From Maribacter aquimaris (GTDB lineage Bacteria; Bacteroidota; Bacteroidia; Flavobacteriales; Flavobacteriaceae), in contig NZ_JABTCF010000001.1 of NCBI RefSeq assembly GCF_014596745.1, positions 806,001 to 870,000 of the forward strand: a stretch of 64,000 nucleotides of DNA, written 5' to 3'. The notes beneath the pieces are model-generated. The model did not search any database. It saw only the letters and a list, made by a program, of their open reading frames with translations, and was not told the DNA's origin. Position 1 is the first letter of the stretch. Each line of letters starts with the position of its first letter. The position numbers and the translations under genes are program-made. Below, one piece after another: positions 5,574-45,912 of this stretch.

Positions 5574-5858
5574 ATGAAGAAGTTTGAGGTCTATAAAAAC
5601 ATTAGGAAACGGGCAGTCATATTTGGGCTGCCTATTTCCCTGTTTGCGCTAATGATGGTTGCTATACTTGCTTCTTTATTAATTATCATTTTTTCATTCA
5701 GCTTCTTAATGATAATAGGTGTTATGGTTTTTAATGCAGCCTTATACATCGCTCTTACAAGGATTGCTAATAACCCTCAACTTTTTCAAACAGCTAAAGC
5801 CTTCCCTAAAATAATAAGTAACAAAAGAAATTCTGACTTCGATTATGAACAAGATTAA
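5574..5858 (+). CDS. traF: TraF-like conjugation protein (DUF4133, VirB3-like)
   Basis: This 94-aa inner membrane protein carries two adjacent hydrophobic helices (about residues 16-60), with a basic N-terminus (KNIRKRAV) before them and a polar C-terminal tail. Proteins of this size between TraE and the TraG ATPase belong to the DUF4133/TraF family and resemble VirB3. Its 3' end overlaps the traG start by 14 bp, which suggests translational coupling to the ATPase. VirB3 and VirB4 are usually partners, and in some systems fused. Confidence 0.85.
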   Translation: MKKFEVYKNIRKRAVIFGLPISLFALMMVAILASLLIIIFSFSFLMIIGVMVFNAALYIALTRIANNPQLFQTAKAFPKIISNKRNSDFDYEQD

Positions 5859-8241
5859 TCTTTCAGCATATAACCCTATTACAGATATTCAAGACAATAT
5901 CATATTTGCCAATAATGGCAATGTCGTCCTATGCTATGAAGGAACGCTACCAGAAATCTATTCACTATCTGAAAAAGACTTTGAGGACATACACGGTGCT
6001 TGGTTTCAGGCTTTAAAATCATTGCCCATTGGTACGGTGGTTCAAAAACAGGATGTTTACCTAAAGAAAACATACACTTCAGAAAAGCTTCCGAATACAA
6101 CATTTTTAGAAAAGGCGACCCACGACCACTTCAAAGGGCGTGATTATATGGAACATCGTTGCTTTTTGTTCTTTACGCTCACTAAGAACAAAGCGTTGAA
6201 TAATTCAAAATATATCAACCCTTTTCGTAAAGTTTCCAAAGGAATTGTTCAACAATTGGATGATAACGTTAAGAGCTTCATCGGTTCAGTAAGCGATTCT
6301 ATCTCCTTTATAAACAATAGCCGAAAGATGGCCTTCGTTTCGCTTAAAGCGAAAGAGATACAGCAACTCACAAATGGCTATTTCAATGGCTTTAATGATG
6401 GGTTTGACACCGACATCATATTAGATAAAAAAAGCGTCAATATTGGCGAAAACCATTTTGATGCCCTTGCCATCAATAGCGAACTGTGCTTTGGCGAAAG
6501 TGTACAGAGTAGCAAGACCAATGAGAAATTCACTTCTGACGATTTCGTATTTCATCAAGGGTTTATTGATGGCTTAGGGCTTACGCTTAATGAAAACCAC
6601 ATAGTCAACCAAATTTTATACTTAGACGACAAACAGAAGTGGCGCAAGCTACTTGACAAGAAAGTTGAAGAACTCAACAAAAGTTCCAATTTCGGCTCTC
6701 AGAACAAAGTGGTACTTGGAAAAATTCAACACATTCTCGACCAGATTAATGCCGATGATAATGCACGAATAATACGTGGTCATTTAAACATTGTGTATTG
6801 GGATAAGAACCCAGAAAATTTAAGCCGAATCGGTTCTAAAATCAAGACTGAATTTAAGGAATTGGATATTATACCGTACTATCCTAGAGGCGAAGAACGG
6901 AAGAATTATATTCTTAATAGTTATTGCTGCTTTTCATCTAACTTTTCAAATAACGATTTATACGTAACCGATTTAAAGCACGCCTTATGCCTGTTTATCA
7001 ATAATACCAATTACAACTCAGATGCTACCGGAATCATCTTCAATGATAGAGAACATAATGTACCCGTTTTAAAAGATGTCTGGGATGAAAAAAAGAAGCG
7101 TATCAAGGCACGTAACTTTGCCATTTTCGCGCCAACTGGCGAAGGCAAATCCTTCCTAGCCAATAATATACTGCGTCAATATTTTGAAAGTGGCGTTCGC
7201 TTGGTCATCATCGACTTGGGTGGTTCATACACCAAATTCGCGAAACTATACCCTGAAAAATATACCGTACTTAGATATGAAAGCGGAAAGAACTTAGGCA
7301 TCAATCCTTTTTACATCAGCGATGTAAAAGATTTGACACCGGAACGTTTGGAAGATTTGTCGGTGTTCCTATTTGAGCTCTTCGCTTCAGATTTAAAAGT
7401 GACCAAGGCACAATCTGTTTCTGTCAAGAAAATACTGAAACATTATTACGATAGTACTTCAGATAATCATTCTTTGGAAGGCTTCTATAATTTTATAGAA
7501 AGGCATCAAGAAAAACTTCTCGATGACCTGAAAATCCATCCCGACTACTTCAATGTGACGAGCTTCTTGCACGTAATGTCTGAATATGTCGGCGATGGTC
7601 TATACAGTTTTCTATTTGAAGTAAGCGAAGACCAGACCTACAAAATAGAGGACAAACGATTAATTGTTTTTGAACTGGATGAAGTCAAGGACAATAAGGA
7701 AATCTTATCCGTAATGTTGAAACTGATTAAGTCTGCCATCCAAAGAACTATATGGAAAAACAGAGCTGAAAAAGGTATCATCCTATTCGATGAATTTGCC
7801 AAACAACTGAAGTTTGATAACGTACTGGAAAGTGTGGAATTCTACTACCAAGCTATCCGTAAACAAAATGGTGCGATTGGGATTATTCTACAATCAATTA
7901 ATCAGCTACCAAATAATTCAACATCCGCAAGTATATTAGAAAACACACAAGTCATTTATAGCCTAAACAATGAAAAAGGCTATGACGAATTAGTCAAAAG
8001 GCTAAATCTTTCGAGCCACGATTTGAACCAATTAAAGTCCATTAAAAACAACCTTTCTGGACCACGAAAGTACACCGAAATGTTTATTAAAATAGGAAAG
8101 GAAAGTAACATTTTCCGTCTTGAAGTTCCAAAGAAAGTGTATGCAGCTTACTTGACAGATGGACAGGAAAATGAAGAAATAATGAAGCTCTATGAAGAGC
8201 ATAATGATATGGAAAAAGCAATAATTCAATTCACATCTTAA
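5845..8241 (+). CDS. traG: TraG conjugation ATPase (VirB4-like)
   Basis: This 798-aa protein is the motor of the type IV secretion apparatus. The N-terminal third corresponds to the DUF3875-type domain of Bacteroidota TraG. The Walker A motif is FAPTGEGKSF (about residues 430-440). A Walker B-like strand IILFDEFAK lies near residue 650 and is followed by a QSINQLP segment typical of VirB4 proteins. The length is usual for the family, and no frameshift is seen. The start at 5845 overlaps traF; an ATG-led frame with a conserved N-terminus supports it. It energises pilus/channel assembly at the inner membrane with the neighbouring TraI-TraN proteins. Confidence 0.95.
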   Translation: MNKINLSAYNPITDIQDNIIFANNGNVVLCYEGTLPEIYSLSEKDFEDIHGAWFQALKSLPIGTVVQKQDVYLKKTYTSEKLPNTTFLEKATHDHFKGRDYMEHRCFLFFTLTKNKALNNSKYINPFRKVSKGIVQQLDDNVKSFIGSVSDSISFINNSRKMAFVSLKAKEIQQLTNGYFNGFNDGFDTDIILDKKSVNIGENHFDALAINSELCFGESVQSSKTNEKFTSDDFVFHQGFIDGLGLTLNENHIVNQILYLDDKQKWRKLLDKKVEELNKSSNFGSQNKVVLGKIQHILDQINADDNARIIRGHLNIVYWDKNPENLSRIGSKIKTEFKELDIIPYYPRGEERKNYILNSYCCFSSNFSNNDLYVTDLKHALCLFINNTNYNSDATGIIFNDREHNVPVLKDVWDEKKKRIKARNFAIFAPTGEGKSFLANNILRQYFESGVRLVIIDLGGSYTKFAKLYPEKYTVLRYESGKNLGINPFYISDVKDLTPERLEDLSVFLFELFASDLKVTKAQSVSVKKILKHYYDSTSDNHSLEGFYNFIERHQEKLLDDLKIHPDYFNVTSFLHVMSEYVGDGLYSFLFEVSEDQTYKIEDKRLIVFELDEVKDNKEILSVMLKLIKSAIQRTIWKNRAEKGIILFDEFAKQLKFDNVLESVEFYYQAIRKQNGAIGIILQSINQLPNNSTSASILENTQVIYSLNNEKGYDELVKRLNLSSHDLNQLKSIKNNLSGPRKYTEMFIKIGKESNIFRLEVPKKVYAAYLTDGQENEEIMKLYEEHNDMEKAIIQFTS

Positions 8242-8252
8242 ATATAAAAACA

Positions 8253-8822
8253 ATGAAAACAAAAATCTTAGTACTTGCAATCGCATTACTGTTTAGCTTA
8301 AATATTAAAGCTCAGGGAATGCCAACTTATGACAATACCAATTTTGTCAGCTTGATAAAACAACTCGTAGAATCTGGTAAACAGACAGCTCAAATGATTA
8401 AGTCTGTAAAATTTTTAAAAGATGCCAAAGAGAGCATCGAGAAAGTATCAAGTGTGGTACAACAACTTAGAGCGGTTCAAGAAATTGCACAAAACAATCA
8501 GCGCCTTATTAATGTAATGCAGAATGATTTACAAGACATCCTGAACTCGCCTTATATAAAACCAGAGGAAGTTACTCGGGTTGCACAATCCTTTGATGCG
8601 ATAGTTCAAAATTCATTAGACACCGTTGACTTTATGGGCGAAATCCTATCTAGTGATAATCTAAAAATGAGCGATGCAGAACGTGCGGAAGTTTTAAAGG
8701 AAAAAGAATTGGAATCAAAAGAAATGGTTTCCAATATCCAGACAAAAACGAAACGATACAGAGATATTATTTCCTTCAGAAAAATGCAGGACAAGATTAA
8801 TAACCGAGAAACAGAATACTAA
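8253..8822 (+). CDS. traI: TraI-like conjugation protein (DUF4141, VirB5-like)
   Basis: This 189-aa exported protein has a signal peptide ending in NIKAQG near residue 21, then a long helical, Gln/Lys/Glu-rich body. That is the usual appearance of DUF4141/TraI of CTnDOT-like elements, which occupies the VirB5 position. It follows traG by 11 bp and precedes traJ by 2 bp. The small traH found in CTnDOT between traG and traI is absent here. Confidence 0.85.
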   Translation: MKTKILVLAIALLFSLNIKAQGMPTYDNTNFVSLIKQLVESGKQTAQMIKSVKFLKDAKESIEKVSSVVQQLRAVQEIAQNNQRLINVMQNDLQDILNSPYIKPEEVTRVAQSFDAIVQNSLDTVDFMGEILSSDNLKMSDAERAEVLKEKELESKEMVSNIQTKTKRYRDIISFRKMQDKINNRETEY

Positions 8823-8824
8823 AA

Positions 8825-9667
8825 ATGACCGCTACTATACTTTTAGGGATTGGATTGGAATACATCGACGCGGTGTTTCAAACCATACAGAACAGCAGTT
8901 TTTCGCAATACACCATTGCCGGAATGAAAACGCTTGCTGTTCTGTTCTTTTTAATTAATATCCTTAAAAAATATAATGAAGGTATTGCAGATAAAGATGG
9001 TTACACTTGGGGATTGAGTCCTGGGGAATTGATGAAGAATTTTGCAATTGTTGTTCTAGTCATATTCTCGACACAAGTACTTGGCTTCTTTGATAGTATC
9101 TTGGTTTCGATAGAAACACAATATCGTGGTACAGCACCTGCTTTATTACCGTTGCAGATGCAAGACATTCCTATTGAAGAGGATGTAAGTATCATCGAGG
9201 TAGCGCAAGCTGCTATGACGCTCTTATATGAAGCATTGGTAACACCGCTCTACGGATTCAAAATATTTGCTTTTATCATTAGCCTTTTTCTTTGGATTTT
9301 GGATTTGTTCATCTACCCACTATTCCTTGCGGAACGCTACTTCTTATTGGGTATAATGCAAGCCTTTTTTCCTTTGGTAATTAGTCTAGCAGTTTTTGAA
9401 AAATTCCGTTCGCTTGCTTATACATTTTTCAAATTGTACGCTGCGGTGTATATGTTGGTGCCAGCTTTCTTCTTGGTCAATGTATTTGTGAACGCCCTCT
9501 ATACTGAAATCAACACTAACTTCTGGACTAACCTTTTTGGTACAGATGTTGGCCAGGGCTTTTTTGCACCTGTGGTTCAGTTAGGGTCGGTATTTTTTAT
9601 TGTCTTCCTGAAATTCAAATTATACAAACGCGCCACATCATTCACGCTCAGATTGTTTACCAGTTAA
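8825..9667 (+). CDS. traJ: TraJ conjugation channel protein (VirB6-like)
   Basis: This 280-aa polytopic inner membrane protein has about six hydrophobic helices, including AVLFFLINILKKY, IVVLVIFSTQVLGFF, FIISLFLWILDLFIYPL and ILGF-like stretches toward the C-terminus. The length and position after TraI match the Bacteroidota TraJ family, which corresponds to VirB6/TrbL. It would form the inner membrane part of the DNA channel. It is packed 2 bp after traI and 5 bp before traK. Confidence 0.88.
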   Translation: MTATILLGIGLEYIDAVFQTIQNSSFSQYTIAGMKTLAVLFFLINILKKYNEGIADKDGYTWGLSPGELMKNFAIVVLVIFSTQVLGFFDSILVSIETQYRGTAPALLPLQMQDIPIEEDVSIIEVAQAAMTLLYEALVTPLYGFKIFAFIISLFLWILDLFIYPLFLAERYFLLGIMQAFFPLVISLAVFEKFRSLAYTFFKLYAAVYMLVPAFFLVNVFVNALYTEINTNFWTNLFGTDVGQGFFAPVVQLGSVFFIVFLKFKLYKRATSFTLRLFTS

Positions 9668-9672
9668 TTCTA

Positions 9673-10293
9673 ATGAAAATGAAAACACCTTATAAAAACA
9701 TCTATGCCGTCTTAAAACTGAACCGATTTATCGTACTGGCAGTTGTCATTTTTGCAATGCTATCTAACATCTTTTCACTTTGGATGGCATTCAGCACAAA
9801 TCAAAAAGCACTCAATAGTGCATTTGCCATTAATACCGATGGTAGTATTATTCCCCTGAAGCTCGTTACCCAAAAAGAAAATTTTAAGATTGAAGCTTTG
9901 GCACATTTAGACTTATTTCATAACTATTTCTATAACATTGATGCCAGTAATTATGAACGGAATCTTGAAAAGGCACTTTGGCTAGGGAATAGTTCTGTAG
10001 ATAATTTATATCGCCAGAAAAAGGCAGATGGTGTCTATAACAGATTGCTGCAATACTCGCTAGTTCAGAAAGTACTAAGTATAGTCTCACAAATCGAAGA
10101 ACAAAACGGAACGTATGTCTTTAGAACCGTTACAATTTTTGAAATCAACCGTGGTTCAATCATAGACACATACGAGCTTGTTTCTAGTGGAAACATAATA
10201 TCAGTTGATAGAAATTTTCCAAACAATCCTCACGGACTATTGATTACAAGCTATTTCGAGAACACCTTAAAAAAAGTAAACGATGAAAATTGA
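9673..10293 (+). CDS. traK: TraK conjugation protein (VirB8-like)
   Basis: This 206-aa protein has one N-terminal membrane helix (about residues 18-40, FIVLAVVIFAMLSNIFSLWM) and a periplasmic domain, the topology of VirB8. Its order between TraJ and TraM and its length match the TraK family of Bacteroidota conjugative transposons. VirB8-type subunits nucleate assembly of the channel in the periplasm. A short hairpin separates it from traM, in the place where CTnDOT-like elements carry traL, for which I see no frame here. Confidence 0.9.
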   Translation: MKMKTPYKNIYAVLKLNRFIVLAVVIFAMLSNIFSLWMAFSTNQKALNSAFAINTDGSIIPLKLVTQKENFKIEALAHLDLFHNYFYNIDASNYERNLEKALWLGNSSVDNLYRQKKADGVYNRLLQYSLVQKVLSIVSQIEEQNGTYVFRTVTIFEINRGSIIDTYELVSSGNIISVDRNFPNNPHGLLITSYFENTLKKVNDEN

Positions 10294-10302
10294 GTTGATA
10301 AT

Positions 10303-10319
10303 CCCGAAATAAATTCGGG
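10303..10319. repeat. Intra-operon palindrome between traK and traM
   Basis: CCCGAA ATAAA TTCGGG forms a 6-bp perfect stem with a 5-nt loop in the 55-bp gap between traK and traM. There is no T-run, so it is not a classic terminator. It may act as an mRNA processing or stability element, or be a REP-like sequence. Confidence 0.5.
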
Positions 10320-10348
10320 TTAGGTTCAACATTTAAAAAAACACGATT

Positions 10349-11278
10349 ATGAGAGTAGAAAAAAATAAAATAGTCTTTGCAGCAGTGCTAGTTGTGATTT
10401 TCATATTCCTAATTTCCTATTCTATGATGGTTATGGGCGATGATAAAAGTGAGAATGAAAATCTTGAACAAACCTTAGTGCCAGATTTAGAGGAAAACCA
10501 AAAAGAATACGATTCAAAATTAGATGCTATTAATGACTTGAAGGAAGTGCGTGAAAATAATGCACCAAGCATCTACGATGAAAAATTTTTGGATTCAACA
10601 GGTCTTTACAATCCTGATTTACCAGAACAGGAAAAAGAACGTATTGTAGATAGTATTTATGAGGCTGGCAAAATTCAATATTCTGAAAAGCGATATCAAA
10701 ACTTTGGGCAAAAGAAAGTTGCTCAAAAAGGCACAAAGCAAATTGACTCAGCCGATATCAAAAGAGAACAAAAAATAGAAGCTAAAGAATTGGGTTTGGA
10801 ACATCAACTGTTCTTTGCTGCTTCGCCAAAACCAAACGAAGTTTCGATTATTGGCAATACAGATGAAACCATTTATGTGGTTGTTGATGGCGACCAAATT
10901 GTGAAAGCAAATACCAGATTGCGAATGAGACTAACCAAAGGTGCAACAATCAATAATAAATTGATGCCAAAGAACACGCCAGTTTTTGGATTTATAAGCT
11001 TTCAGCCCAATCGTGCTTTAATTGAGATTGAAAATATAAAGCATCATCCCACCAAACTTAAAGCCTTCGATTTATCGGATGGTAGTGAGGGCATCTATGT
11101 ACAAAACAATTTTCGAGCAGAAGCTACCACCGAAGTTATAGATGATATTATTGGCGACATTAACATTCCAACAGTTCCACAAGTAGGGGGAATTACAAAA
11201 GTGTTTAGACGTAACAATCGAAACATAAAAGTAACCGTATTGAACAATTACAGATTAATTCTAAAACCTAAGTTATAA
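10349..11278 (+). CDS. traM: TraM conjugation protein (VirB10-like)
   Basis: This 309-aa protein has a single N-terminal membrane anchor (about residues 8-30), then a charged, flexible linker to about residue 150. The C-terminal beta domain (IYVVVDGDQIVKANTRLRM..., about residues 175-305) is the conserved TraM C-terminal region of Bacteroidota transposons and corresponds to VirB10. VirB10 proteins bridge inner and outer membranes and gate the channel. It partners with TraN downstream. It is somewhat shorter than CTnDOT TraM because the linker is shorter. Confidence 0.9.
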   Translation: MRVEKNKIVFAAVLVVIFIFLISYSMMVMGDDKSENENLEQTLVPDLEENQKEYDSKLDAINDLKEVRENNAPSIYDEKFLDSTGLYNPDLPEQEKERIVDSIYEAGKIQYSEKRYQNFGQKKVAQKGTKQIDSADIKREQKIEAKELGLEHQLFFAASPKPNEVSIIGNTDETIYVVVDGDQIVKANTRLRMRLTKGATINNKLMPKNTPVFGFISFQPNRALIEIENIKHHPTKLKAFDLSDGSEGIYVQNNFRAEATTEVIDDIIGDINIPTVPQVGGITKVFRRNNRNIKVTVLNNYRLILKPKL

Positions 11279-11291
11279 GCCCATAATGGGC
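11279..11291. repeat. Intra-operon palindrome between traM and traN
   Basis: GCCCAT A ATGGGC is a perfect 6-bp inverted repeat starting just after the traM stop codon and 17 bp before traN. Like the hairpin between traK and traM, it lacks a T-run. It marks the only two longer gaps in the operon. Confidence 0.45.
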
Positions 11292-11308
11292 ATTTAAAAA
11301 CGACTCTT

Positions 11309-12169
11309 ATGAAAAAGTATATCATTATTTCAGCTCTCATTATTTCCGCTTTCGCACCTCGACTAAGCTCGGCACAAGCTACAGCTAACGCACAAGCAAC
11401 ACACGCGCTCGACACTATTTACGCAAACGATACTAAAAATGTTGCGCTATTTTTCCCAGAACCTATACGTCAAGGCATAACTGGTTCAGATAATTTTGTG
11501 TTTACCTATAATCGTGAGAAAGAACAATACTTTGGATTACTTCAGGCAAAGCCTGGGAAAGAAAGTAATCTACTGGTAGTCAACAGAAATGGTTCAATTT
11601 TTTCGTATATTGTAAGATATAAAAAGCAGCTATCAAAGCTCAATTATTTCATTCCATTATCAAATAGTATTGGTAATGAAAAGCCAATCGTTAGCGATTC
11701 GATTCAGGCTGAAACTTCTGAAAAAAGTATAGATAATAGAACGTATTATTATCAAAAATTCTGTTCTTATCTTCTTAATAGAAATCAGCATATAGGTCGA
11801 ATCAAGAAGCGAAATGAAGGTGTTGTTTTGAGTGTTGAGAATATTGTTTTTGATAAAGAAGAACTCTACTTCGTTATTCAGATTGAGAATAATTCTACGT
11901 TGGATTACGATTTGAATTTCTTGAACCTTTCAATTGAAACACGACAAAAAGGAAAAAAGAAATCTTTACAGAGTTTGTATCAAGAACCGATTTATAAGCA
12001 CCATTTGCCTTCAAAAATTGCAGAGGGTAAGATGATACGATTCGTTTATGTGTTACCCAAATTCTCATTATCTAATGACCGTAGGGCAATTTTAGAATTA
12101 AACGAGAAAGATGGCGAACGAAATATTAAACTGAAAATATCACATAGGTATATCAATAACCCAAATTAG
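11309..12169 (+). CDS. traN: TraN conjugation protein (DUF4138, VirB9-like)
   Basis: This 286-aa exported protein has a signal peptide (about residues 1-22, ending LSSAQA). The N-terminal domain reads VALFFPEPIRQGITGSDNF, the recognisable start of the TraN/DUF4138 family, which takes the VirB9 outer-layer position. A second beta-rich domain occupies residues about 150-285. It would form the outer membrane core with TraM. No traO, traP or traQ follows; a small lipoprotein gene closes the operon instead. Confidence 0.9.
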   Translation: MKKYIIISALIISAFAPRLSSAQATANAQATHALDTIYANDTKNVALFFPEPIRQGITGSDNFVFTYNREKEQYFGLLQAKPGKESNLLVVNRNGSIFSYIVRYKKQLSKLNYFIPLSNSIGNEKPIVSDSIQAETSEKSIDNRTYYYQKFCSYLLNRNQHIGRIKKRNEGVVLSVENIVFDKEELYFVIQIENNSTLDYDLNFLNLSIETRQKGKKKSLQSLYQEPIYKHHLPSKIAEGKMIRFVYVLPKFSLSNDRRAILELNEKDGERNIKLKISHRYINNPN

Positions 12170-12176
12170 TAGTATT

Positions 12177-12539
12177 ATGAAAAATTTAGTCCTTTGCTCA
12201 CTCGTACTTTTATTCATTTCTTGTTCTGAAACCAAGAATTTATCTCACACAGAAACCGCACAAATTGTTGCCGAAAGTTTTTTCTCAAAAGATGAATCAG
12301 CTTTAAAGAAGCATACAACAGCAGCAGGATATAGTAGCTTGATTACAGGTTTAAATATGATACCAGAATCTGACAAAAAAGTTGAAGTAGAAATCTTAGA
12401 AGAAGCCATCGAAGGCGAAATTGCTTGGGTACGATACAAAACATCTTTTGATGGAAAGACGGGTATTTTTAAGCTCGTCAAAGAAAATGGTCAATGGAAA
12501 GTGACTAATAAAGGACCTAGGGAAAAAGGGTCTTTTTAA
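12177..12539 (+). CDS. Small DUF4878-like lipoprotein closing the tra operon
   Basis: This 120-aa protein has an SPII signal peptide (lipobox LLFISC, C16). The mature part resembles the DUF4878/NTF2-like lipoprotein fold: an alpha helix (AQIVAESFFSKDESAL) followed by curved strands and the ending GQWKVTNKG. It starts 7 bp after traN. Its position suggests an envelope-anchored accessory to the transfer machine, filling the role of VirB7-like lipoproteins, or an exclusion function. The role is inference; the lipoprotein call is clear. Confidence 0.75.
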   Translation: MKNLVLCSLVLLFISCSETKNLSHTETAQIVAESFFSKDESALKKHTTAAGYSSLITGLNMIPESDKKVEVEILEEAIEGEIAWVRYKTSFDGKTGIFKLVKENGQWKVTNKGPREKGSF

Positions 12540-12582: not shown

Positions 12583-14841
12583 TTATAGGCTATTATTATA
12601 AATTTGCTCAATTGAACTTTTGAATATCTGAAATTTTGGATTAGATTGATTATTTAGTTCAATTAAAAGTTCGTCATAGTGTTCTTTTGCTAATCTCAAT
12701 TTCCCTATTGCCAACGCGTATAAAAACTCTAATATAGCCTCGCCTTGATATTCGTCGAGTGATTTCAGAAAAGTCTTTAATAACATAAGCATATCCGCAG
12801 AAATTTTTTTGCTACAAGAATAATTTAATTCTTCATTTCTTGCTGCTCTCAAGAGAGATGCTTGAATTATCCCATCATTAAAACGATTAAAAACAAAAGG
12901 GTCTAATACATTTTTCACGAAACTGGTCTGAAACAATCCATCTTCTTTATTATTACGCATATTATTCAGAACGCAAGAAATGGTAAAATATACATCTGAT
13001 TGAGATACATTTTGGTAGTATTTATTATCGTTAAAAAAAGCTGAGTTTTTTCTTATTTCAAGTTCATTACCACCTACACTTGAATAAAATATTTTTTGAC
13101 TTCCACCTCGATTTTTAGAATCTGAAAATGGTCTCAAAATATCAACTCTATCATTGATAAATTTTGAAGGCACATCCAATTCTTCTTGAACTGACTGTAA
13201 ATAATCGAGTTCTTCTTCCCAAGGTGTATTCGAACTTGAATTATCGCAATTTATGGTCTCAATCTCCACCAAAGAACTATTATCTGGACCATAAAGACCA
13301 TACTTGATATTGGTTCTGAGCTCAGTAAATTTCTTTGGGTCGCTAACTCGATTTATTCCAATAAAATAGATTAACCTAATGTTCTCATAGTTCCGGAAAA
13401 ACCGACTTAAATAAAGTAGGTTCTTTCCATTTGAAATACAAGAACCTACAATTAATATAGAGCCTGAAGTTTTACTCTCTATAGTGTCTTCCTTTAAGTC
13501 GGATTGATTTATGATAGTGATTTTATTCTTTGCAAAATCTTTGATTTCATCTTTGATATACTGCGACAATAGCAGGGAACCTTTATCATTGAGGTGGACA
13601 ATATGGCTTATAGATGCTGGGACATATTGATTAATGTAAGCATCTAATTTGCTTTTGTGACTTTTGAAACACTCATTAGTAATGTCGCCAATGATATTTG
13701 CATAGTCTATGTAAAGGTTATATTTTTTTCTTGAAGTCGAATCTTCACTATATGATACTTTTAGAGACGTTCCAGACTCGTTGTTATGTTTGAAAGCTTC
13801 AACAAAGTTTTTTAATGATTTCGGAATATATTTAGACGCACTAATATTTCTGGGATAAATTACTGGTTCATCTAAATTGAAAGAGTCGCCTATAATGCTT
13901 ATAGGCGTAGAGTGGTTTTTACAGTAAATACACTCTTCATTTGCTTTTGATTGGTCGTAAAGAGGAATACCATAATCTAATTTTTCGTTTTTTTCTAAAT
14001 TACACAAAACCCTTTCTTGAACTATAGGCGAGTCCTTATCGATTGGCATATAATAAAGGGTGCATATTTCGTCCGAGCTTATTTCTGGGTGGTTCTTTTG
14101 AATATAATTTATGAGTCCGCCAGATGTAGATGCCGAAATAAGAAATATGGATTTATCATAAAAGACGGATTGGCTATTGTACAAGCCGTCGTAGGACTTA
14201 AAAGATTCAATATTAATTTCTTTATCTTGTTTGAATCTCTTCAAATATTTGGTCATTGAATATGCAACGACATTAATAGACAGGGTATCACAATATATAT
14301 TATCGAAATCTAATTTACCAAATAGATGTAAAGTGTTTAGTGCTATAAAGTCAATTTGACTTTTAAAGACTAAAACATTGGCAGTTCTAAGAAATTTTGA
14401 TGAATGTTTTCCTGAAGGAAAAACAAAATGGTGGGAAATTCCATTACTTTCAACTAAGCCACCATTATCCTCAAAAATTTTAATTAAACCTTGATTCAAT
14501 ATCTCTTTCTTGTTTTTTGCCAAAAATCCTCTCTTTGGAAAACAGAAAGAATCTTTATCGTAAGGTATATAAGAAATACTGTCTGATAAAGAAGATTCTT
14601 CAACTTTTGGAATACTCTTAAAGATGACTTCTAAATTGGCTTCAACACTTTTTTGTACATCCGTATTCTCTTGACAATGCAAAAAAACTAATGTGCTTGT
14701 TTGATGAAAATATTTGAAGTATTCTGTAAGTTCATTTTTCAAGGTGTTAAAATCAAAAGCGATGTCCGGGTTGAACACTATCGTAGCATTTTTATGCTTT
14801 TTGTCTACGAGTTTGGCATTGTATATATAGTATTTACCCAT
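12583..14841 (-). CDS. 752-aa protein with phosphoribosyltransferase-like segments, partner of a GHKL ATPase
   Basis: I do not recognise this as a named family. Visible elements: FPSGKHSSKF near residues 142-150, like the SGKHS strand of orotate phosphoribosyltransferases; a hydrophobic strand followed by STSGG near residues 232-243, resembling a PRPP loop; a Cys pair CIYC at 304-307; and a second strand-loop, ILIVGSCISNGK, at 462-473, again PRPP-loop-like but with SNGK in place of SGT. The C-terminal 200 residues are mostly helical. It begins 3 bp after the stop of the upstream GHKL gene, so the two are translated together. Nucleotide or PRPP binding is inference. In a defence island the pair reads as sensor/effector, but no known system was recognised. 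Confidence 0.6.
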   Translation of the reverse strand: MGKYYIYNAKLVDKKHKNATIVFNPDIAFDFNTLKNELTEYFKYFHQTSTLVFLHCQENTDVQKSVEANLEVIFKSIPKVEESSLSDSISYIPYDKDSFCFPKRGFLAKNKKEILNQGLIKIFEDNGGLVESNGISHHFVFPSGKHSSKFLRTANVLVFKSQIDFIALNTLHLFGKLDFDNIYCDTLSINVVAYSMTKYLKRFKQDKEINIESFKSYDGLYNSQSVFYDKSIFLISASTSGGLINYIQKNHPEISSDEICTLYYMPIDKDSPIVQERVLCNLEKNEKLDYGIPLYDQSKANEECIYCKNHSTPISIIGDSFNLDEPVIYPRNISASKYIPKSLKNFVEAFKHNNESGTSLKVSYSEDSTSRKKYNLYIDYANIIGDITNECFKSHKSKLDAYINQYVPASISHIVHLNDKGSLLLSQYIKDEIKDFAKNKITIINQSDLKEDTIESKTSGSILIVGSCISNGKNLLYLSRFFRNYENIRLIYFIGINRVSDPKKFTELRTNIKYGLYGPDNSSLVEIETINCDNSSSNTPWEEELDYLQSVQEELDVPSKFINDRVDILRPFSDSKNRGGSQKIFYSSVGGNELEIRKNSAFFNDNKYYQNVSQSDVYFTISCVLNNMRNNKEDGLFQTSFVKNVLDPFVFNRFNDGIIQASLLRAARNEELNYSCSKKISADMLMLLKTFLKSLDEYQGEAILEFLYALAIGKLRLAKEHYDELLIELNNQSNPKFQIFKSSIEQIYNNSL

Positions 14842-14844
14842 AAT

Positions 14845-16008
14845 CTAATTTTTGAACGGGTATAAAATACTTATGTATGAACCCTGAGCCTTAATTTGAT
14901 TTTCAAAACCATCCTGGTTCCAGTTTTCTATCACTAAATCCTTTAGATTATCTTTTTTGACTGGTTCATAATTATCCTTAATCAAATCACGATATACACT
15001 ATACTTGTCTGTAGATATTTTTAGAAATCCTTTCTTATCTAAAATTCTCAGAATTCTATCTAAACCAATACCTTTTTTTGATTTCAAATTTGATGTAGAT
15101 GAAGTTTGGTTTTTAATAAGACACTTTTTTATAATGCTTAAATCGTCGATTTCATTTTTTTGGTGAAACTTATCAATAAAACCAACTCCAGAATCAAAAA
15201 CCAAAATTTCCAAATAGTACACCTGCTTTAAATGGTTAAGATATTCCCTCTCTATGCTCTTATGATTAAAAAATGTAGCTATTGGTGTACCTTTATATTC
15301 TTCAGTAATTTTTTCTTTTTTGTTTATATGAAAACGCAGATATGCACCTCTAACACTTGAAGGTATTTCAACAGAGTTTGAATCTGTTCTTCCCCATTCG
15401 AAAGTATTCTTTGTTAACTCATAGACAATAGCTCCTATATCTTCAAGGATATCTTCTACTTCATTTAAATTTTGTTTTTTGAAAGTCAGAATATTTTTTG
15501 TGAGTATCTTTTTTACTGTAGTAGCAATTTTCTTTTCGTCATCATTAAAGCCATTTGAATTTTCAAAAAGTCTAATTAAACCTTTGCTTTTAGATAGATG
15601 GTCTGTATTTACCCAGATGTGCTTATTACCTTTGAATTTTTCATATGAATTCATCTTTATGAAAAATTCATTTTGTTTCTCTCTTAAAAGACTTTTAATG
15701 TTTTCCCCATCTTTATCTACAAATTTAGCAGTATTCCAAAGCAAAGAAATTATTGGGTAGCTATACTCCTGCTCATAGAATTTATCCAATTCACTTGAAG
15801 CGAAATCAAGTTTTATAATTTTAATATTACATTTACTGTTTAAGGTAATAATCAGTTTTAAAATATCAGCCAATAACCCAAAACGGTATTGCGCTAAATC
15901 ACTTGGAATCAATAAAGCTATAGGTTTATCTTCAATGTCTCCTATTTTGCAATAAGTTTCTGCGAGATGCTTAGGGGTTGTATGTTTAATGATTTTTATT
16001 TCGGTCAT
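14845..16008 (-). CDS. Stand-alone GHKL (HATPase) protein paired with the PRTase-like protein
   Basis: This 387-aa protein has the Bergerat ATP-binding fold in its C-terminal half. The N-box is VYELTKNTFEWG (E197, N201), the G1 box FDSGVGF (D272, G274, G276) and the G2 box KKGIGLDRIL (G313-L316). There is no histidine kinase phosphoacceptor helix, receiver or membrane segment, so it is not a two-component kinase. The N-terminal 180 residues form an alpha/beta region I cannot name. It is 40 bp downstream of an AlbA_2 protein gene and 3 bp upstream of the 752-aa gene. It may be an ATP-driven switch or chaperone-like component of a defence pair. Confidence 0.75.
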   Translation of the reverse strand: MTEIKIIKHTTPKHLAETYCKIGDIEDKPIALLIPSDLAQYRFGLLADILKLIITLNSKCNIKIIKLDFASSELDKFYEQEYSYPIISLLWNTAKFVDKDGENIKSLLREKQNEFFIKMNSYEKFKGNKHIWVNTDHLSKSKGLIRLFENSNGFNDDEKKIATTVKKILTKNILTFKKQNLNEVEDILEDIGAIVYELTKNTFEWGRTDSNSVEIPSSVRGAYLRFHINKKEKITEEYKGTPIATFFNHKSIEREYLNHLKQVYYLEILVFDSGVGFIDKFHQKNEIDDLSIIKKCLIKNQTSSTSNLKSKKGIGLDRILRILDKKGFLKISTDKYSVYRDLIKDNYEPVKKDNLKDLVIENWNQDGFENQIKAQGSYISILYPFKN

Positions 16009-16048: not shown

Positions 16049-17428
16049 TTAGTTTTTATCTATGTTAATTTCCCAATAGCCTCTAGTATCTCCTTTTCGT
16101 ACTAAAAAGCCTTTATTCTTAATAGCTGTAATATGTTTACCAACAGCAGATTCGTTAATACTTAAGGCTTCAGCTATCTCAATATATGTTATAGAAGGAT
16201 TTGCAGCAATAAGTTTAAGTACTTCTTTTTGCCTTTTCGTTAAAGCTTCAGCTGCATCAATTGCACCACCTTTTACACTACCTATTGCACCACCTATTAC
16301 ACCACCTTTTTGATTACCTTCTCTATCATCAACTTTAACAGAAGTTTCATTAGTATCTTCTTGAACTGCAAAAGTCATTCTAAGGAAATTATCAGAAAAA
16401 CTAAAACTTTCTTTTCTATAATGCCCTAAAATACGAGGGATGCCAGAACCTAGCTGTTCCACCAATTCCAAATCCTTAAAAATACGCATCAGTTCCTTAT
16501 TGCGTGGAACTGAAAAGCCTTCGAAAAATTCTTGTTTGCTCAACCCTTCCGGTAAACCACCTGCCGATGTGATTTCAATTCTATCGGTAAAGATTTCAAA
16601 CTTTGGGGTAATCTCATTGGTATAGTCATTATGCACAAAGGCATTAATGATAGCCTCGCGCAATGCAATAGGATTCCAAAGATTGGCCTGCTGTCGTTCT
16701 TTTGACGTAATTTTTGTGGTGGTTCTGTTCTCTACCGCTATTTTATCAATGACTTGCTTTGTAGCTTTTACCAAACATTCGTGACCGTATTCGTTACTTT
16801 CTATTAAATCTGTTCGGGTTGTGCCAGAATATTTGGCAACCTTAATCGAGGTGTTATTTTTATCTGCCAAAAGGTAGGCGGCATAATTAAATGCACCATC
16901 CTCAGTTAGTAATTCTAAATTCTTTGAAAATGCTTTGCCGAGTGTATATCCTGATTCTTCGTAGTAAATTTTTAACTGGCTAAAGCTCAAATCTTGACGA
17001 CCAGCTTTAATTTTACTAATGGAATTTCGGGTGCGTTTAGAAAAAAGCTCGTCAATCATTTTTTGTGGCATCGGTTCAGCTGCTGAACCTAAGCGAATGA
17101 AACATCCCTTTTCACTCATCCCATACTTTTTAAGATGATATGGTTTTTCTGGACCGCTGGCCACAATGATTTTTAGAATATTCTTGCCGTCTCTTTCTTC
17201 ACTCACGATATCAAATAGACCAAGTGCAGAAGGACCGATATTGTTCTTTAGCCTGTCCTTAATTTTTAATTGGTCGCTATCTGCATCTACCAAACCATAA
17301 GTGTTTCCCTCTTTGTCAATGCCGATATATAGAATACCACCTTCACGGTAGTTCAAGAAAGCAATGATCTCTTTTTCAAGTCCATCTGTAAGTTCTCGTT
17401 TGTATTCTATACGGTTTGTTTCGGTCAT
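16049..17428 (-). CDS. AlbA_2/Schlafen-type ATP-binding DNA-binding protein with C-terminal winged helix
   Basis: This 459-aa protein has three parts. Residues about 1-125 are the AlbA_2 (Schlafen core) domain: EYKRELTDG, then FLNYREGGILYIGID. Residues about 245-355 are the HATPase_c_4 / RecG-C-terminal-like domain, with LREAIINAFVHNDYT and GLPEGLS. A low-complexity glycine stretch (GGVIGGAIGSVKGGA) joins a winged helix at about 395-455 (SITYIEIAEALSINESAVGKHI). Such proteins are usually annotated as ATP-dependent helicase-like or transcriptional regulators. Its position between CBASS and the GHKL pair makes a regulatory or defence role plausible. The 144-bp gap on its 5' side suggests its own promoter. 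Confidence 0.85.
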   Translation of the reverse strand: MTETNRIEYKRELTDGLEKEIIAFLNYREGGILYIGIDKEGNTYGLVDADSDQLKIKDRLKNNIGPSALGLFDIVSEERDGKNILKIIVASGPEKPYHLKKYGMSEKGCFIRLGSAAEPMPQKMIDELFSKRTRNSISKIKAGRQDLSFSQLKIYYEESGYTLGKAFSKNLELLTEDGAFNYAAYLLADKNNTSIKVAKYSGTTRTDLIESNEYGHECLVKATKQVIDKIAVENRTTTKITSKERQQANLWNPIALREAIINAFVHNDYTNEITPKFEIFTDRIEITSAGGLPEGLSKQEFFEGFSVPRNKELMRIFKDLELVEQLGSGIPRILGHYRKESFSFSDNFLRMTFAVQEDTNETSVKVDDREGNQKGGVIGGAIGSVKGGAIDAAEALTKRQKEVLKLIAANPSITYIEIAEALSINESAVGKHITAIKNKGFLVRKGDTRGYWEINIDKN

Positions 17429-17572: not shown

Positions 17573-18010
17573 TTAGTGCTTCACTTCATCTGCCAACCAC
17601 ACACCATACTTTTTCCACAACTCATAAATAACCAACCATTCCGAAATCCAAGGTATTACATCTATAAAATTCAAATCCAGATGTTGTGGAATATCTTTAG
17701 GAAAGTATAAGCATAGACTATTATCTGGATAGAGATGTGGCGTTTTATCGAATTGAATTTGGCTATCATTTACTACAAAAACCCTTTCTTTTTTTAAGGT
17801 ATCGTTGATATCATAGACTATTAATATTTCATATTCCTTTTTGCATCCCTTTGGTTTGATTTTGCCTTTACCTAATAGCTTTCCTTCTCTAACGATTGTA
17901 TTTAGCCAGGGAAAATGTTTTTCAATATGATATTGCTGTATGTATGCAGCTGTAAACTTTCTGTTAATACTAATATTTAGTTTTGATTTTAAATCAATAT
18001 TAACCACCAT
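17573..18010 (-). CDS. E2-like ubiquitin-conjugating-fold protein of short type II CBASS
   Basis: This 145-aa protein starts at the ATG at 18010, which overlaps the last 11 bases of the CD-NTase gene. A longer frame to 18112 would overlap that gene by 113 bp and is unlikely. The key segment PHLYPDNSLCLYFP (P91-P104) is the UBC signature with H92 and the catalytic cysteine C100. E2-like proteins without an E1 or a deubiquitinase define short type II CBASS, where the E2 acts on the C-terminus of the CD-NTase. That fits the Gly-Gly end of the CD-NTase upstream. No E1/Cap2 adenylation domain or JAB peptidase is in the island. Confidence 0.85.
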   Translation of the reverse strand: MVVNIDLKSKLNISINRKFTAAYIQQYHIEKHFPWLNTIVREGKLLGKGKIKPKGCKKEYEILIVYDINDTLKKERVFVVNDSQIQFDKTPHLYPDNSLCLYFPKDIPQHLDLNFIDVIPWISEWLVIYELWKKYGVWLADEVKH

Positions 18011-19199
18011 AATTTCTATGTGGCTTACTTTGATATCCATTGTCTGTTGTAATATTTCCCTTTGGGTCAACGTAATTTTTACCCGCCATAATAGAAAGAC
18101 CAGCTTTTTCAAGTGTATCTCCCTTACCTTTTGATAAATTTTCCAACTGGGCTTTTAAAATGATTTTTGTCCTTGCGCTACCAAAAAGTTCTTCAGCTAT
18201 TCCAAAATCTCCTTTTTTAAGACGCTCCCATTTTTCTTTATAACTTTTAGCAAAAGCGATAAATTGATTATAATACTCCTTATCCTTATCCCATTTGTCT
18301 GTGAAATCTTCTTCAGGATTTACAGGATTTAGCACTTTGATTCTTTTATATATACCACGATTTTCAAAAAGTTGTTGATACTCTGAATAATTACCTATTA
18401 TACGGTTTAAAACATTATCTATGGTTTCATATATTGATGCCTCTCCTTGATAAAGTTGTCCAAAAATTGTAGTCAAAACAATACTAGAAGTCCTATGTTT
18501 TGGGTTTTTATCAAAAAATATGTCACGATATCGTTTGGTTAGCTGTACTGCTCTTTTTAGAGGTTCTTTTGAATAAAAATTCTCGTCTGGTAAATCCGTC
18601 TGTTCTGCTTCCGATAAAATGACAAAATTTTCAAATGCCTTTCTGAGTAAAATTGGTTGACGAACATCTTTAGCTACATCTAAGAACCAACCGCTATAAC
18701 CTTTTGGAAATGTAGATGTCCAAGACGCCAACTCACGGTCTGGAACCATCAATTTATCCTCATCCTTAATGACAATGCAACCAGGAAGAATATCCAAATG
18801 GAAATCGCCAGAATAATTTATTCTTGCACATCTATTTTTTGGTATAAGTTTAGGTCGATAAACATCATTTCCTCTAAAGACACGGATTAAATGATTATAG
18901 ATTTCTGATGACGTATAATTATGGTACAAATCTCTAATATGGACGACAATATCCAAATCAAATTCATCTTTACCAAAAGGTTTGGTTGTTGTGCCAATGG
19001 CCTTTGAGCCTTGCGGATATACAACAAAATCTACCTTTGAAAAAAATACGGTATCTGCTTTTAGAACATCGTAAATGGCATTATAAGCAGATTTCATTCT
19101 ATTAGAACGCGAATCGTCCAACTCAAGTGATTCTGCCATTCTGGCGAGTAGGTCTTCCCTTTGAAAACCTTGATTGTATAAGTATTCTTGAAAATTCAT
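18000..19199 (-). CDS. CD-NTase (cGAS/DncV-like nucleotidyltransferase) of CBASS
   Basis: This 399-aa nucleotidyltransferase would make a cyclic oligonucleotide alarm signal after phage infection. The active site is complete: the GS motif QGSKAIGT (G64, S65), the metal-binding pair FDLDIVV (D81, D83) and a third acidic residue in FHLDILPG (D136). The C-terminus is NYGG, a ubiquitin-like Gly-Gly end suited to conjugation by the E2 encoded next. Its ATG follows directly on the stop codon of the 2TM-NUDIX gene, with no gap. The clade and product nucleotide cannot be told by eye. Confidence 0.92.
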   Translation of the reverse strand: MNFQEYLYNQGFQREDLLARMAESLELDDSRSNRMKSAYNAIYDVLKADTVFFSKVDFVVYPQGSKAIGTTTKPFGKDEFDLDIVVHIRDLYHNYTSSEIYNHLIRVFRGNDVYRPKLIPKNRCARINYSGDFHLDILPGCIVIKDEDKLMVPDRELASWTSTFPKGYSGWFLDVAKDVRQPILLRKAFENFVILSEAEQTDLPDENFYSKEPLKRAVQLTKRYRDIFFDKNPKHRTSSIVLTTIFGQLYQGEASIYETIDNVLNRIIGNYSEYQQLFENRGIYKRIKVLNPVNPEEDFTDKWDKDKEYYNQFIAFAKSYKEKWERLKKGDFGIAEELFGSARTKIILKAQLENLSKGKGDTLEKAGLSIMAGKNYVDPKGNITTDNGYQSKPHRNYGG

Positions 19200-20708: not shown

Positions 20709-21389
20709 ATGAAAGCATTGATGTCTAATTGGAATAAACTTAAAGATGAACCCACATTAAGGTTAGCTGAACTGTTTCAGGACAATCTTAGCTCTGAGTC
20801 TCAAAAGGAAAATGCTTTTCACGCAATTTGTTACAGATTTAAGGATGATGTTTTAAAAAGAAGTGAAATATTTTGTAAAAGGTTTGGTCACGACATTACA
20901 GTTGCGGAACAGATTACAACAGCAACATTTACTTCATACGCAAAAAAAGGTGGCTTTTTGATTCAAAAAGCTAACCAACAGGATGTAGATGATGCTTTTA
21001 AAAGTTATTTATTCAAGATAACTAAGAATGAACTCACTAATTATTATCGAGAAGAGCAAAGAAAAAAAAATTACCCTTATGATGGAACTGAACGTATTAT
21101 CACAGAACTCCCAGTTTTAGAAGGGATGAAATTAAGTCTTGAGCAGTCAATTATTTTAAAGGCAATAGAATCTCTCACTCCTTCTCAGCGAACAGTTTAT
21201 TTAACATATAGTCAATATGAGAAATTAGGGTTCAACCTTCCGAAAAAGCTTCTACAAGAACTTCGCATTCAACTTGGTGGTATCTCGCAAACAACTATTC
21301 GAACTTATAAAAAAGAAGCTTTTGACAAGATTAAAAACTTTACAGAAGTAATGAAGTTAACTAAAGAATTATCCGATGGAAAAATCTAA
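20709..21389 (+). CDS. Sigma-70-family RNA polymerase sigma factor, divergent from CBASS
   Basis: This 226-aa protein has sigma region 2-like sequence at about residues 45-120 (AEQITTATFTSYAKKGGF, then KSYLFKITKNELTNYYREEQRKK). Its region 4-like C-terminus, at about 150-210, has SLTPSQRTVYLTY and SQTTIRTYKKEAFDKI. There is no anti-sigma signature next to it. It starts 94 bp from the CBASS operon in the opposite direction and overlaps the following gene by 14 bp. It could switch on CBASS or ICE genes; the target is unknown. The match to classic ECF factors is loose. Confidence 0.7.
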   Translation: MKALMSNWNKLKDEPTLRLAELFQDNLSSESQKENAFHAICYRFKDDVLKRSEIFCKRFGHDITVAEQITTATFTSYAKKGGFLIQKANQQDVDDAFKSYLFKITKNELTNYYREEQRKKNYPYDGTERIITELPVLEGMKLSLEQSIILKAIESLTPSQRTVYLTYSQYEKLGFNLPKKLLQELRIQLGGISQTTIRTYKKEAFDKIKNFTEVMKLTKELSDGKI

Positions 21390-22119
21390 AATTGACGAAA
21401 TATTGGTTTCTTTAGGCTTTGGTTTTCCCGAAAGTAAGAGTGAAAATATTGCATTTGAAGAAACTTTCGAAAATTATCAATTTGAAGCTGATGCTAATAA
21501 AATAGACTCAGAAAAGATTTTAAAAAGCTTAAAACCTAAAAGAAAAGGAACTAATATAGACTATCATCGAAGAACTGTATTAGCTGCCGAAATTGTATAC
21601 AAACTTCATAAGGAAAACACATTAGGGCATTTGAAACTTCAGAAATTGATATATCTATGTCAACATTCCGCTCAGATGGATTTATATACTAACTTTCTAA
21701 AACAAGCTATGGGTCCATACGATAATAGACTTATGCGGTCACTAGATAAACAGTTTAAAGTTAATCAATGGTTTCAATTTTCAGGTGGGGAATATCTAAA
21801 ATATCAACCACTCTCAAAAGTAGGTGGTCATAGAGAGTGGTATGAAAAATACTTTTCAAATCAACTTTCTGAAATTGACTTTATTATAGAGAAATTTAGA
21901 ATAACAAAAACCAAAAGGGTCGAATTAATTGCTACTGTGTTTGCTTGTTGGAAAGAAATCATTGAAGAAAAACAGCTTTTTAATAATGAAATTTTGATAA
22001 AAAAATTCTATAATTGGCATCCTGATAAATCGAAATTTTCTAAACAAGAAATTATCGAAATTATTGAGTGGATGAAAAATGAAGGTTTCTATCCGAATAT
22101 TGACCTAGCCTCCTCATAA
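21376..22119 (+). CDS. SocA/Panacea-like (DUF4065) domain protein
   Basis: This 247-aa protein has residues about 65-180 in the Panacea/SocA-like pattern: AAEIVYKLHKE, LKLQKLIYLCQH, then AMGPYDNRLMRSL. Such domains act as antitoxins, chaperones or proteolytic adaptors (SocA, GepA) and also occur beside defence genes. The first 60 residues look disordered or linker-like. It overlaps the sigma-factor gene by 14 bp, so the pair is translationally coupled, which suggests it controls or protects the sigma factor. Its 3' end overlaps the convergent coupling-protein gene by 31 bp. Confidence 0.7.
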   Translation: MEKSKIDEILVSLGFGFPESKSENIAFEETFENYQFEADANKIDSEKILKSLKPKRKGTNIDYHRRTVLAAEIVYKLHKENTLGHLKLQKLIYLCQHSAQMDLYTNFLKQAMGPYDNRLMRSLDKQFKVNQWFQFSGGEYLKYQPLSKVGGHREWYEKYFSNQLSEIDFIIEKFRITKTKRVELIATVFACWKEIIEEKQLFNNEILIKKFYNWHPDKSKFSKQEIIEIIEWMKNEGFYPNIDLASS

Positions 22120-45814: not shown

Positions 45815-45838
45815 AGTATGGATTGATATCCAGTTTCG

Positions 45839-45912
45839 TCGGGATGACAGGATTTGAACCTGCGACCACACGGCCCCCAGCCGTGTACGCTACCGGACTG
45901 CGCCACATCCCG
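45839..45912 (-). tRNA. tRNA-Pro(GGG)
   Basis: The 74-nt cloverleaf is complete on the minus strand: acceptor CGGGATG/CATCCCG, D-arm GCGCAGTCCGGTAGCGT, anticodon loop CTGGGGG with anticodon GGG, T-arm GGTTCAAATCC and discriminator A. CCA is not encoded. It marks the start of chromosome-like sequence. Confidence 0.95.

Follow-up and report, generated by a model that had tools for sequence, protein, structure and literature searches.

Introduction

Several described anti-phage systems resemble the gene pair presented here in part. One of them, DprA-PRTase, is also known by the short name Rst_DprA-PPRT. This system of P2-like phages consists of two genes, one of which encodes a phosphoribosyltransferase (PRTase), and acts against phages according to the accessible text of its description (PMC9122126). 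Type III retrons likewise carry PRTase-like effectors that serve in defence, as the available part of another report states (PMC12548924), and a PRTase label occurs among the validated E. coli systems in the accessible text on DefensePredictor (PMC13092281). GHKL ATPases also take part in phage defence, as in the Shedu protein VcSduA, whose GHKL residue E27 was described as essential in the text available (PMC12137116).

Here, we analyzed a gene pair in a 64,000-nucleotide stretch of the Maribacter aquimaris genome (contig NZ_JABTCF010000001.1, positions 806,001 to 870,000; hereafter the window). Gene A, encoding a GHKL ATPase, precedes gene B, encoding a PRTase-like protein, on the minus strand with a spacer of 3 bp (14842-14844), and the open reading frames (ORFs) lie where an earlier note on this DNA places them, with the spacing that it gives (Table 1). 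Whereas the PRTase of the DprA-PRTase system is paired with DprA, the partner here is a GHKL ATPase; unlike the GHKL domain of VcSduA, which is fused to a nuclease, A is a separate protein. B shares its PRTase-like character with the effectors of type III retrons, and one viral PRTase-CE protein resembles it by fold (prob 0.98, E 6.1e-3). The pair is likely an anti-phage defence module, and we treat it as a candidate of that kind. Our overall reading, to which we attach about even confidence, is that of a mobile two-gene module: a GHKL switch governs a partner that binds nucleotides and is probably not a PRTase.

The gene pair is listed as PDC-M65

A search of PADLOC-DB 2.0.0 assigned A to PDC-M65A (1.1e-149, positions 1-394 of 398) and B to PDC-M65B (E = 0, positions 1-762 of 763), and no other PADLOC model matched either protein at E <= 1. 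The window thus carries the same gene pair as PDC-M65, with both proteins full-length and no sequence difference to set them apart. Because the pair is already catalogued as this phage-defence candidate (PDC), apparently without an experimental test, the earlier note's description of an undescribed system is unsupported. The PDC set reportedly originates from the Payne et al. 2024 preprint, as known from papers that cite it. PDCs were identified through 'guilt-by-embedding', and most of them are not validated, according to the accessible text of two papers (PMC12988326, PMC10855318), and the contiguous restriction embedding of the pair described below agrees with such an origin. PDC-M66, the list neighbour of PDC-M65, resembles the validated system DS-6 in the text available (PMC12548924). 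A literature search whose coverage excludes most subscription papers and bioRxiv preprints, so that an earlier test is possible, returned no paper naming PDC-M65, and none of the papers listed dealt with this GHKL-PRTase pair in the title or at the start of the abstract. To the listing we add the domain anatomy of both proteins, the loss of an acidic pair from the phosphoribosyl pyrophosphate (PRPP) loops, and the spread of the pair in Bacteroidota and Pseudomonadota.

Membership of the pair in a retron, a DprA-PRTase system or a toxin-antitoxin system was considered, and none is claimed. No reverse transcriptase was found among the ten ORFs between 12583 and 23669 (Pfam; nine also by PADLOC) or among seven of the genes at 5845-12536 (Pfam). 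In the PADLOC check for genes related to reverse transcriptases, the only match was that of a NUDIX gene of the neighbouring cyclic oligonucleotide-based anti-phage signalling system (CBASS) to a NUDIX model associated with defence-associated reverse transcriptases.

A and B are inherited as one unit

Matches to A or B were collected at 85 loci, five of which were second fetches of one place. A lay directly before B on the same strand in 76 of the 85, across Bacteroidota and Pseudomonadota, and the two genes are conserved together; a lack of such conservation had been named in the earlier note as a refutation. The gaps ranged from -176 to +11 bp; they were taken from the first start codon, and the overlaps are therefore upper limits. 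Some of the 76 contained split or cut frames (e.g. L043, L045, L067, L074, L134 and L169). The nine other loci had shortened genes or ended with the contig: in two the contig stopped before A (L033, L080), three had A and a B that ran off the contig (L063, L069, L071), one had a shortened B without A (L026), two had B fragments (L137, L166), and one had A with B cut short (L165). On a Spirosoma plasmid, B is divided into two frames, the N-terminal part being separate from the remainder (L134:6594-8920), which may be a natural division or an error in the sequence.

Pairwise distances of A and B co-varied closely (Mantel r 0.96, 39 loci; 0 of 9999 permutations were as high), and five comparisons of A or B between the window, L011 and L019 gave dN/dS values (ratios of nonsynonymous to synonymous substitution rates) of 0.08-0.13. 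A and B are passed on together as a unit and are under purifying selection. The full-length PADLOC matches of both genes, together with their conservation in two phyla, place the pair beyond chance.

Relatives of B were detected in 7 of 395 genomes sampled from the same phylum, or 5 of 395 after removal of two PyrE-like matches, and in 16 of 398 Pseudomonadota genomes, or 7 of 398 after removal of nine. One of these seven was the search centre, and A adjoined B in all seven. The removed matches were weak, lay in frames of ~195 aa and were taken as genuine PyrE; of those in the own-phylum sample, G263 was read as PyrE from its sequence and G116 from score and frame length, whereas for the nine in Pseudomonadota the call was based on score, position and frame length. 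The search with A gave six matches, two of which were set aside (E ~1e-3), leaving 4 of 397. Relatives of the window B were further found in 11 of 72,556 plasmid records and at one locus on viral contigs, and in none of 50,697 phage records.

The pair recurs in restriction operons and beside other defence genes

The genomic setting was counted at 56 loci from genomes and viral contigs (mean stretch 15.4 kb, some short), and type I restriction-modification (RM) genes were found with seeds from these same loci, which makes the counts a lower limit. Type I RM genes occurred at 13 of the 56 loci, and at ten they formed an unbroken run with the pair on one strand (gaps below 150 bp); the stretches examined at the other 43 had none. 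HsdR was present at ten loci. By chance, about 1% of such stretches would be expected to contain it, given ~1.8 HSDR_N matches per genome in the phylum (~210 in 118 genomes). The embedding probably arose several times, since at least five different gene orders were represented (M-S-x-R-A-B, M-x-x-S-A-B-R, M-x-S-A-B-R, R-M-x-A-B, R-x-x-S-A-B-M and A-B-M). The loci L029, L031 and L034, which share one order, may represent a single event.

Other defence genes were also found close to the pair. A set of 103 proteins of at least 150 aa located within 1.3 kb of the pair at 51 loci (another five, near-duplicate or short, were skipped) included, by Pfam, six HSDR_N, six Methylase_S, four N6_Mtase and three AbiEii-type AAA matches. 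Two sets of ten neighbours were picked by hand, the first by size and nearness, with L047 in both. Seven of the first ten matched PADLOC models at 1e-10 (AriA, Avs3a, HamB, ThsA, type IIG/PbeA, LmuB and type III RM), at L030, L038, L048, L051, L053, L072 and L079, directly beside the pair or one gene away. The second set gave three clear matches (two type III RM genes and one PDDEXK-like effector) and two weak or generic ones. On a P. aeruginosa plasmid (L133) a Qat system directly follows the pair, and at L019 type III RM is a near neighbour.

These settings bear on an alternative in which the pair is a guard or addiction unit that, like PrrC, senses failure of the resident restriction system and then kills or arrests the cell, with no direct sensing of the phage. 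PrrC and DarTG2 are proteins of a different kind from A and B and parallel the pair in position only. PrrC lies within a type IC operon, whose enzyme sequesters it (PMC3874165), and DarTG2 has its place between hsdS and hsdR (PMC12255303), as the accessible parts of both reports state; the relatives of the pair in hsd operons occupy similar positions, and their contiguity with type I RM genes at ten loci counts in favour of such a unit. However, the window copy lies outside any hsd operon, unlike PrrC and DarTG2, and next to CBASS. Guarding type I RM alone is insufficient because of this copy and of the 43 loci without such a gene, some of which were short stretches. A unit that guards many different systems would still fit, and we regard the guard explanation as a whole as unlikely, if worth keeping in mind.

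Two further arrangements were noted. First, a thyX gene, encoding FAD-dependent thymidylate synthase, directly precedes A on the same strand in all three rhizobial plasmids with an intact pair (Table 1). It was found by blastp at none of the other 82 loci, L165 with its cut-short B included; compared with L139, identities were 89-90% for ThyX and 69-74% for B. Second, L072:9192-11147 (651 aa) and L079:9787-11796 (669 aa) lie directly after B on the same strand and are a possible third component of that branch; the 651-aa product had no Pfam match and the 669-aa product no PADLOC match.

Gene A keeps the GHKL ATPase boxes

The earlier note's assignment of A as a GHKL protein with three nucleotide boxes was borne out by 42 A proteins, in which E197, N201, D272, G274, G276, G313, G315 and L316 were each invariant. 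Pfam and NCBIfam scans of A returned nothing at E <= 1 and thus revealed neither a kinase nor a receiver domain, again in agreement with that note. Among the 42 proteins, one grazed HATPase_c (0.02) and one HATPase_c_5 (0.024). The AlphaFold2 model of A had a predicted local distance difference test score (pLDDT) of 88 and a predicted template modelling score (pTM) of 0.90, with pLDDT below 50 at residues 302-314, which include part of the G2 box. Foldseek matched this model weakly to the GyrB, ParE and Hsp90 ATPases (best, GyrB, E 3.9e-3, prob 0.87; none at 1e-3), and a profile search of A against solved structures gave no relative at E <= 1.

The first ~150 residues of A form, in the predicted model, an alpha/beta domain without assigned kin. 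A STAS-like domain was suspected here from the order of strands and helices. Profile comparison with DUF4325 proteins gave nothing better than E 0.71 and 0.43, and in an alignment with one STAS-HATPase-like protein the GHKL part aligned (E 0.0011) while the N-terminal part was co-linear at E 0.41.

Gene B combines a PRTase-like fold with pockets that lack the acidic pair

Absence of a PRTase fold from B had been named beforehand in the earlier note as a refutation. The AlphaFold2 model of B (pLDDT 87, pTM 0.77) matched orotate PRTase (OPRTase) and adenine PRTase (APRT) with prob 1.00 and E values from 8.3e-6, and uridine monophosphate (UMP) synthase at 1.6e-6. Among the Foldseek matches in the Protein Data Bank, 40 had E <= 0.001, and nearly all were orotate, adenine or hypoxanthine PRTases or UMP synthase (prob 0.98-1.00). 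A fold search of viral proteins returned giant-virus PRTases, UMP synthases, many low-probability rows and the PRTase-CE protein mentioned above, which is from a phage. B is accordingly modelled with an orotate-type PRTase fold, and we read the recurring order of strands and helices in the model as two tandem PRTase-like modules; the prob of 1.00 for OPRTase was obtained with the whole model and does not say which domain of B matched.

By sequence, residues ~117-182 of module 1 matched a PyrE profile (E 1.8e-4, probability 49%), and module 2 matched in the PRPP loop only (E 0.017, not significant by itself). Usable frames for the PyrE profiles came from 20 of 30 PyrE loci (15 of 19 above the family cut-off and 5 of 11 below it); module 1 matched only the profile of 15 sequences, that of five giving E 0.19. 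A profile comparison of the two modules gave no match between them (E 0.35). B matched none of the PRTase models in Pfam, and its sole family match besides PADLOC was a weak one to pyrE_Therm (E 0.0063, 16.1 bits; cut-off 150).

B shares with PyrE the fold and the SGKH hood motif of module 1, and differs from it in having two modules (as read here) in one chain, no acidic pair, and extra N-terminal and helical C-terminal domains. Both the OPRTase-like SGKH strand (P142-S-G-K-H) and the two PRPP-loop-like strands (231-244 and 462-474) that the earlier note described are present. In the hood strand, P and S were conserved in 40 of 40 B homologues, G and K in 34 each and H in 36, and each C of a CxxC at 304/307 in module 1 in 35.

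The PRPP loop of type I PRTases is defined by an acidic pair, which serves PRPP binding. None of the 40 homologues had an acid at this pair in either module; it was replaced by S-A/S/T in loop 1 and by G/A/S/C-S/A in loop 2, whereas a Bacteroidota PyrE, compared alongside, had E-D. Nevertheless, P142, S143, R152, D185, S236 and S238 were invariant in module 1, at positions that we assign to the hood, the pyrophosphate loop and the PRPP loop; S422 and G472 were kept in module 2. Invariant pocket residues despite the loss of the acids speak for a binding pocket that has been kept, not one that has decayed.

The earlier note's PRTase call thus stands as a fold and is doubtful as chemistry, and its proposal that B consumes or modifies a nucleotide is doubtful because no homologue keeps the acidic pair in either loop. 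The corresponding alternative sees in B an active PRTase-like enzyme that, once A permits it, would use up or modify a nucleotide in the manner of nucleotide-depletion immunity. The fold and the invariant residues of module 1 are what such an enzyme would need, and the PRTase proteins of retrons are probable effectors of unknown mode, while the DprA-PRTase pair protects against T7 and lambda in the accessible text (PMC9122126). Set against the consistent absence of acids from both loops, these points leave an active enzyme rather improbable in our view. From the sequences, ligand binding or another chemistry suits B better than phosphoribosyl transfer.

The mostly helical C-terminal domain had its strongest block at R653-x-N-D-G-x2-Q660-x4-R665, in which R653, N655, D656, G657, Q660 and R665 were conserved in 40 of 40, and E705-F706 was also invariant. 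A nuclease or HEPN reading of this domain was rejected, as no Pfam family was common to more than one of the 40 homologues; it had no relative by sequence among solved structures, and neither A nor B showed a nuclease domain.

The window copy lies in a conjugative element beside CBASS

Upstream of A lies a 459-aa gene (Table 1) and beyond it a CBASS operon comprising a SMODS cyclase, an E2 protein and a 2TM-NUDIX effector (Pfam, PADLOC). The adjoining CBASS reported in the earlier note is therefore real, and the defence setting recurs at many loci. The CBASS cyclase and E2 (17573-19199) are two overlapping frames corresponding to positions 1-405 and 412-542 of a single fused PADLOC model; the division may be natural or an error in the sequence. 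Beside CBASS, at 20709-22119, a sigma-70-like gene adjoins one whose product resembles the C-terminal parts of the type I methyltransferase, HsdS and DarG models.

Table 1. Coordinates of the gene pair, its motifs and domains, and associated genes. Positions refer to the window unless a locus is named.
Feature	Position	Strand	Description
Gene A	14845..16008	-	387 aa; N-terminal alpha/beta domain (~1-150) followed by GHKL ATPase domain; PDC-M65A
N box of A, E197-x3-N201	15406..15420	-	E 42/42, N 42/42
G1 box of A, D272-S-G-x-G276	15181..15195	-	D, G, G each 42/42; S 36/42, T 6/42
G2 box of A, G313-x-G315-L316	15061..15072	-	G, G, L each 42/42
Gene B	12583..14841	-	752 aa; N-terminal domain, two PRTase-like modules (as read), helical C-terminal domain; PDC-M65B
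PRTase-like module 1, ~residues 111-320	13882..14511	-	Orotate-type; limits from secondary structure of the model
OPRTase-like hood motif P142-S-G-K-H ... R152	14386..14418	-	P, S, R 40/40
PRPP-loop-like strand 1, 231-244	14110..14151	-	S236, S238 40/40; no D/E at 236 or 237 in 40
PRTase-like module 2, ~residues 341-532	13246..13821	-	Strand/helix order as in module 1
PRPP-loop-like strand 2, 462-474	13420..13458	-	G472 40/40; 466 is G/A/S/C, 467 is S/A; no D/E in 40
Helical C-terminal domain of B, 540-752	12586..13224	-	Mostly helical in model
Upstream neighbour of A	16049..17428	-	459 aa; SLFN_AlbA_2, HATPase_c_4 and winged helix (Pfam); 40 bp from A
thyX before A	L130:4468-5406	same as A	blastp
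thyX before A	L138:4538-5476	same as A	blastp
thyX before A	L139:4549-5487	same as A	blastp

Conjugation genes flank the locus, with a TraG-type ATPase and TraM at 5845-11278 and a type IV secretion system coupling protein at 22089-23669. Further features assigned to this conjugative element in 5845-45912 of the window are a tyrosine integrase at 44336-45589 and, near it, a tRNA-Pro at 45838-45912. A scan for promoters and terminators gave no more sites than shuffled sequences.

The genome harbors a second copy of the pair on another contig (L011), with identities of 97.9% for A, 97.1% for B and 92.2% for the 459-aa gene (L011:10404-11783). That gene left a 68-residue remnant at L019 (L019:9080-9340) and was found by blastp at no other of the 85 loci; it travels with the window's branch of the pair and is a local companion rather than a core component, possibly a local regulator. 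L019 and the window have both flanks in common, with type III RM in L019 where the window carries CBASS, and their copies occupy one cargo site shared by related conjugative elements. The L011 copy lies in a partial remnant of that site, with the 120-aa gene in one flank and a fragment of the coupling protein in the other. At its cargo position, L011:3830-10306 encodes a 2158-aa protein with an N-terminal PDDEXK-like effector match (1.6e-10, PADLOC) and a NACHT domain (2.1e-7), which looks like a STAND-type (signal transduction ATPase with numerous domains) defence protein without a closer PADLOC model.

That the pair is instead a regulatory or housekeeping unit of conjugative elements and plasmids, sharing islands through common mobility, would agree with these cargo sites, with the 11 plasmid records and with copies amid transporter and metabolic genes, but is very unlikely in view of the recurrent placement in type I RM operons of varied gene order and of neighbours drawn from several unrelated defence systems.

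Proposed mechanism

The module is well supported, and its mechanism we infer as follows. On balance A would gate B, its ATP-dependent opening and closing setting the state of B. We lean slightly towards B being a ligand-binding protein that is not a PRTase. Its pockets would hold a phosphoribosyl compound as a signal or brake, not as a PRTase substrate; the orotate type of module 1 makes a pyrimidine nucleotide the most likely ligand. If this ligand changed, or a neighbouring or guarded defence failed, the helical C-terminal domain with its R-x-N-D-G-x2-Q-x4-R block would be released and would then halt growth of the infected cell. We propose only tentatively that this domain is the effector.

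A more specific form of the ligand-binding reading, speculative and in our judgement rather improbable, makes B a guard of the nucleotide pool. Two pockets of OPRTase origin that have lost transfer chemistry would read a pyrimidine nucleotide disturbed by the phage, and the GHKL ATPase would switch the helical effector. The position of thyX before A in rhizobial plasmids would suit such a guard, and could be chance.

Several observations weigh against the GHKL-switch reading or parts of it. The 103 near neighbours also included three phage integrases, two transposases and single metabolic genes (Pfam); three of ten neighbours in the first hand-picked set and five of ten in the second had no PADLOC match; and three plasmid copies sit amid transporter or metabolic genes. 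The GHKL fold match of the A model is weak, and the fold matches of B are partial (TM-score by target length 0.25-0.61, root-mean-square deviation 4.9-27 A for the 40 at E <= 0.001). The position of the acidic pair in loop 1 was derived from motif and secondary structure without a profile alignment, D185 as the pyrophosphate loop falls just beyond the aligned stretch, and loss of the acidic pair does not prove that transfer chemistry is gone. The effector role of the C-terminal domain is a guess, as the domain has no known relative.

Implications

If B proves to be a nucleotide-pool guard, the pair would represent immunity that watches nucleotide metabolism through repurposed biosynthetic enzymes. 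The anatomy of the pair leads to a testable claim, namely that PRTase folds in immunity may serve as nucleotide sensors instead of enzymes. Since PRTase-like proteins recur in retrons and in DprA-PRTase, as far as the accessible text describes them (PMC9122126), one solved case could explain several. The recurrent placement inside restriction operons, in turn, makes the pair a candidate back-up to restriction.

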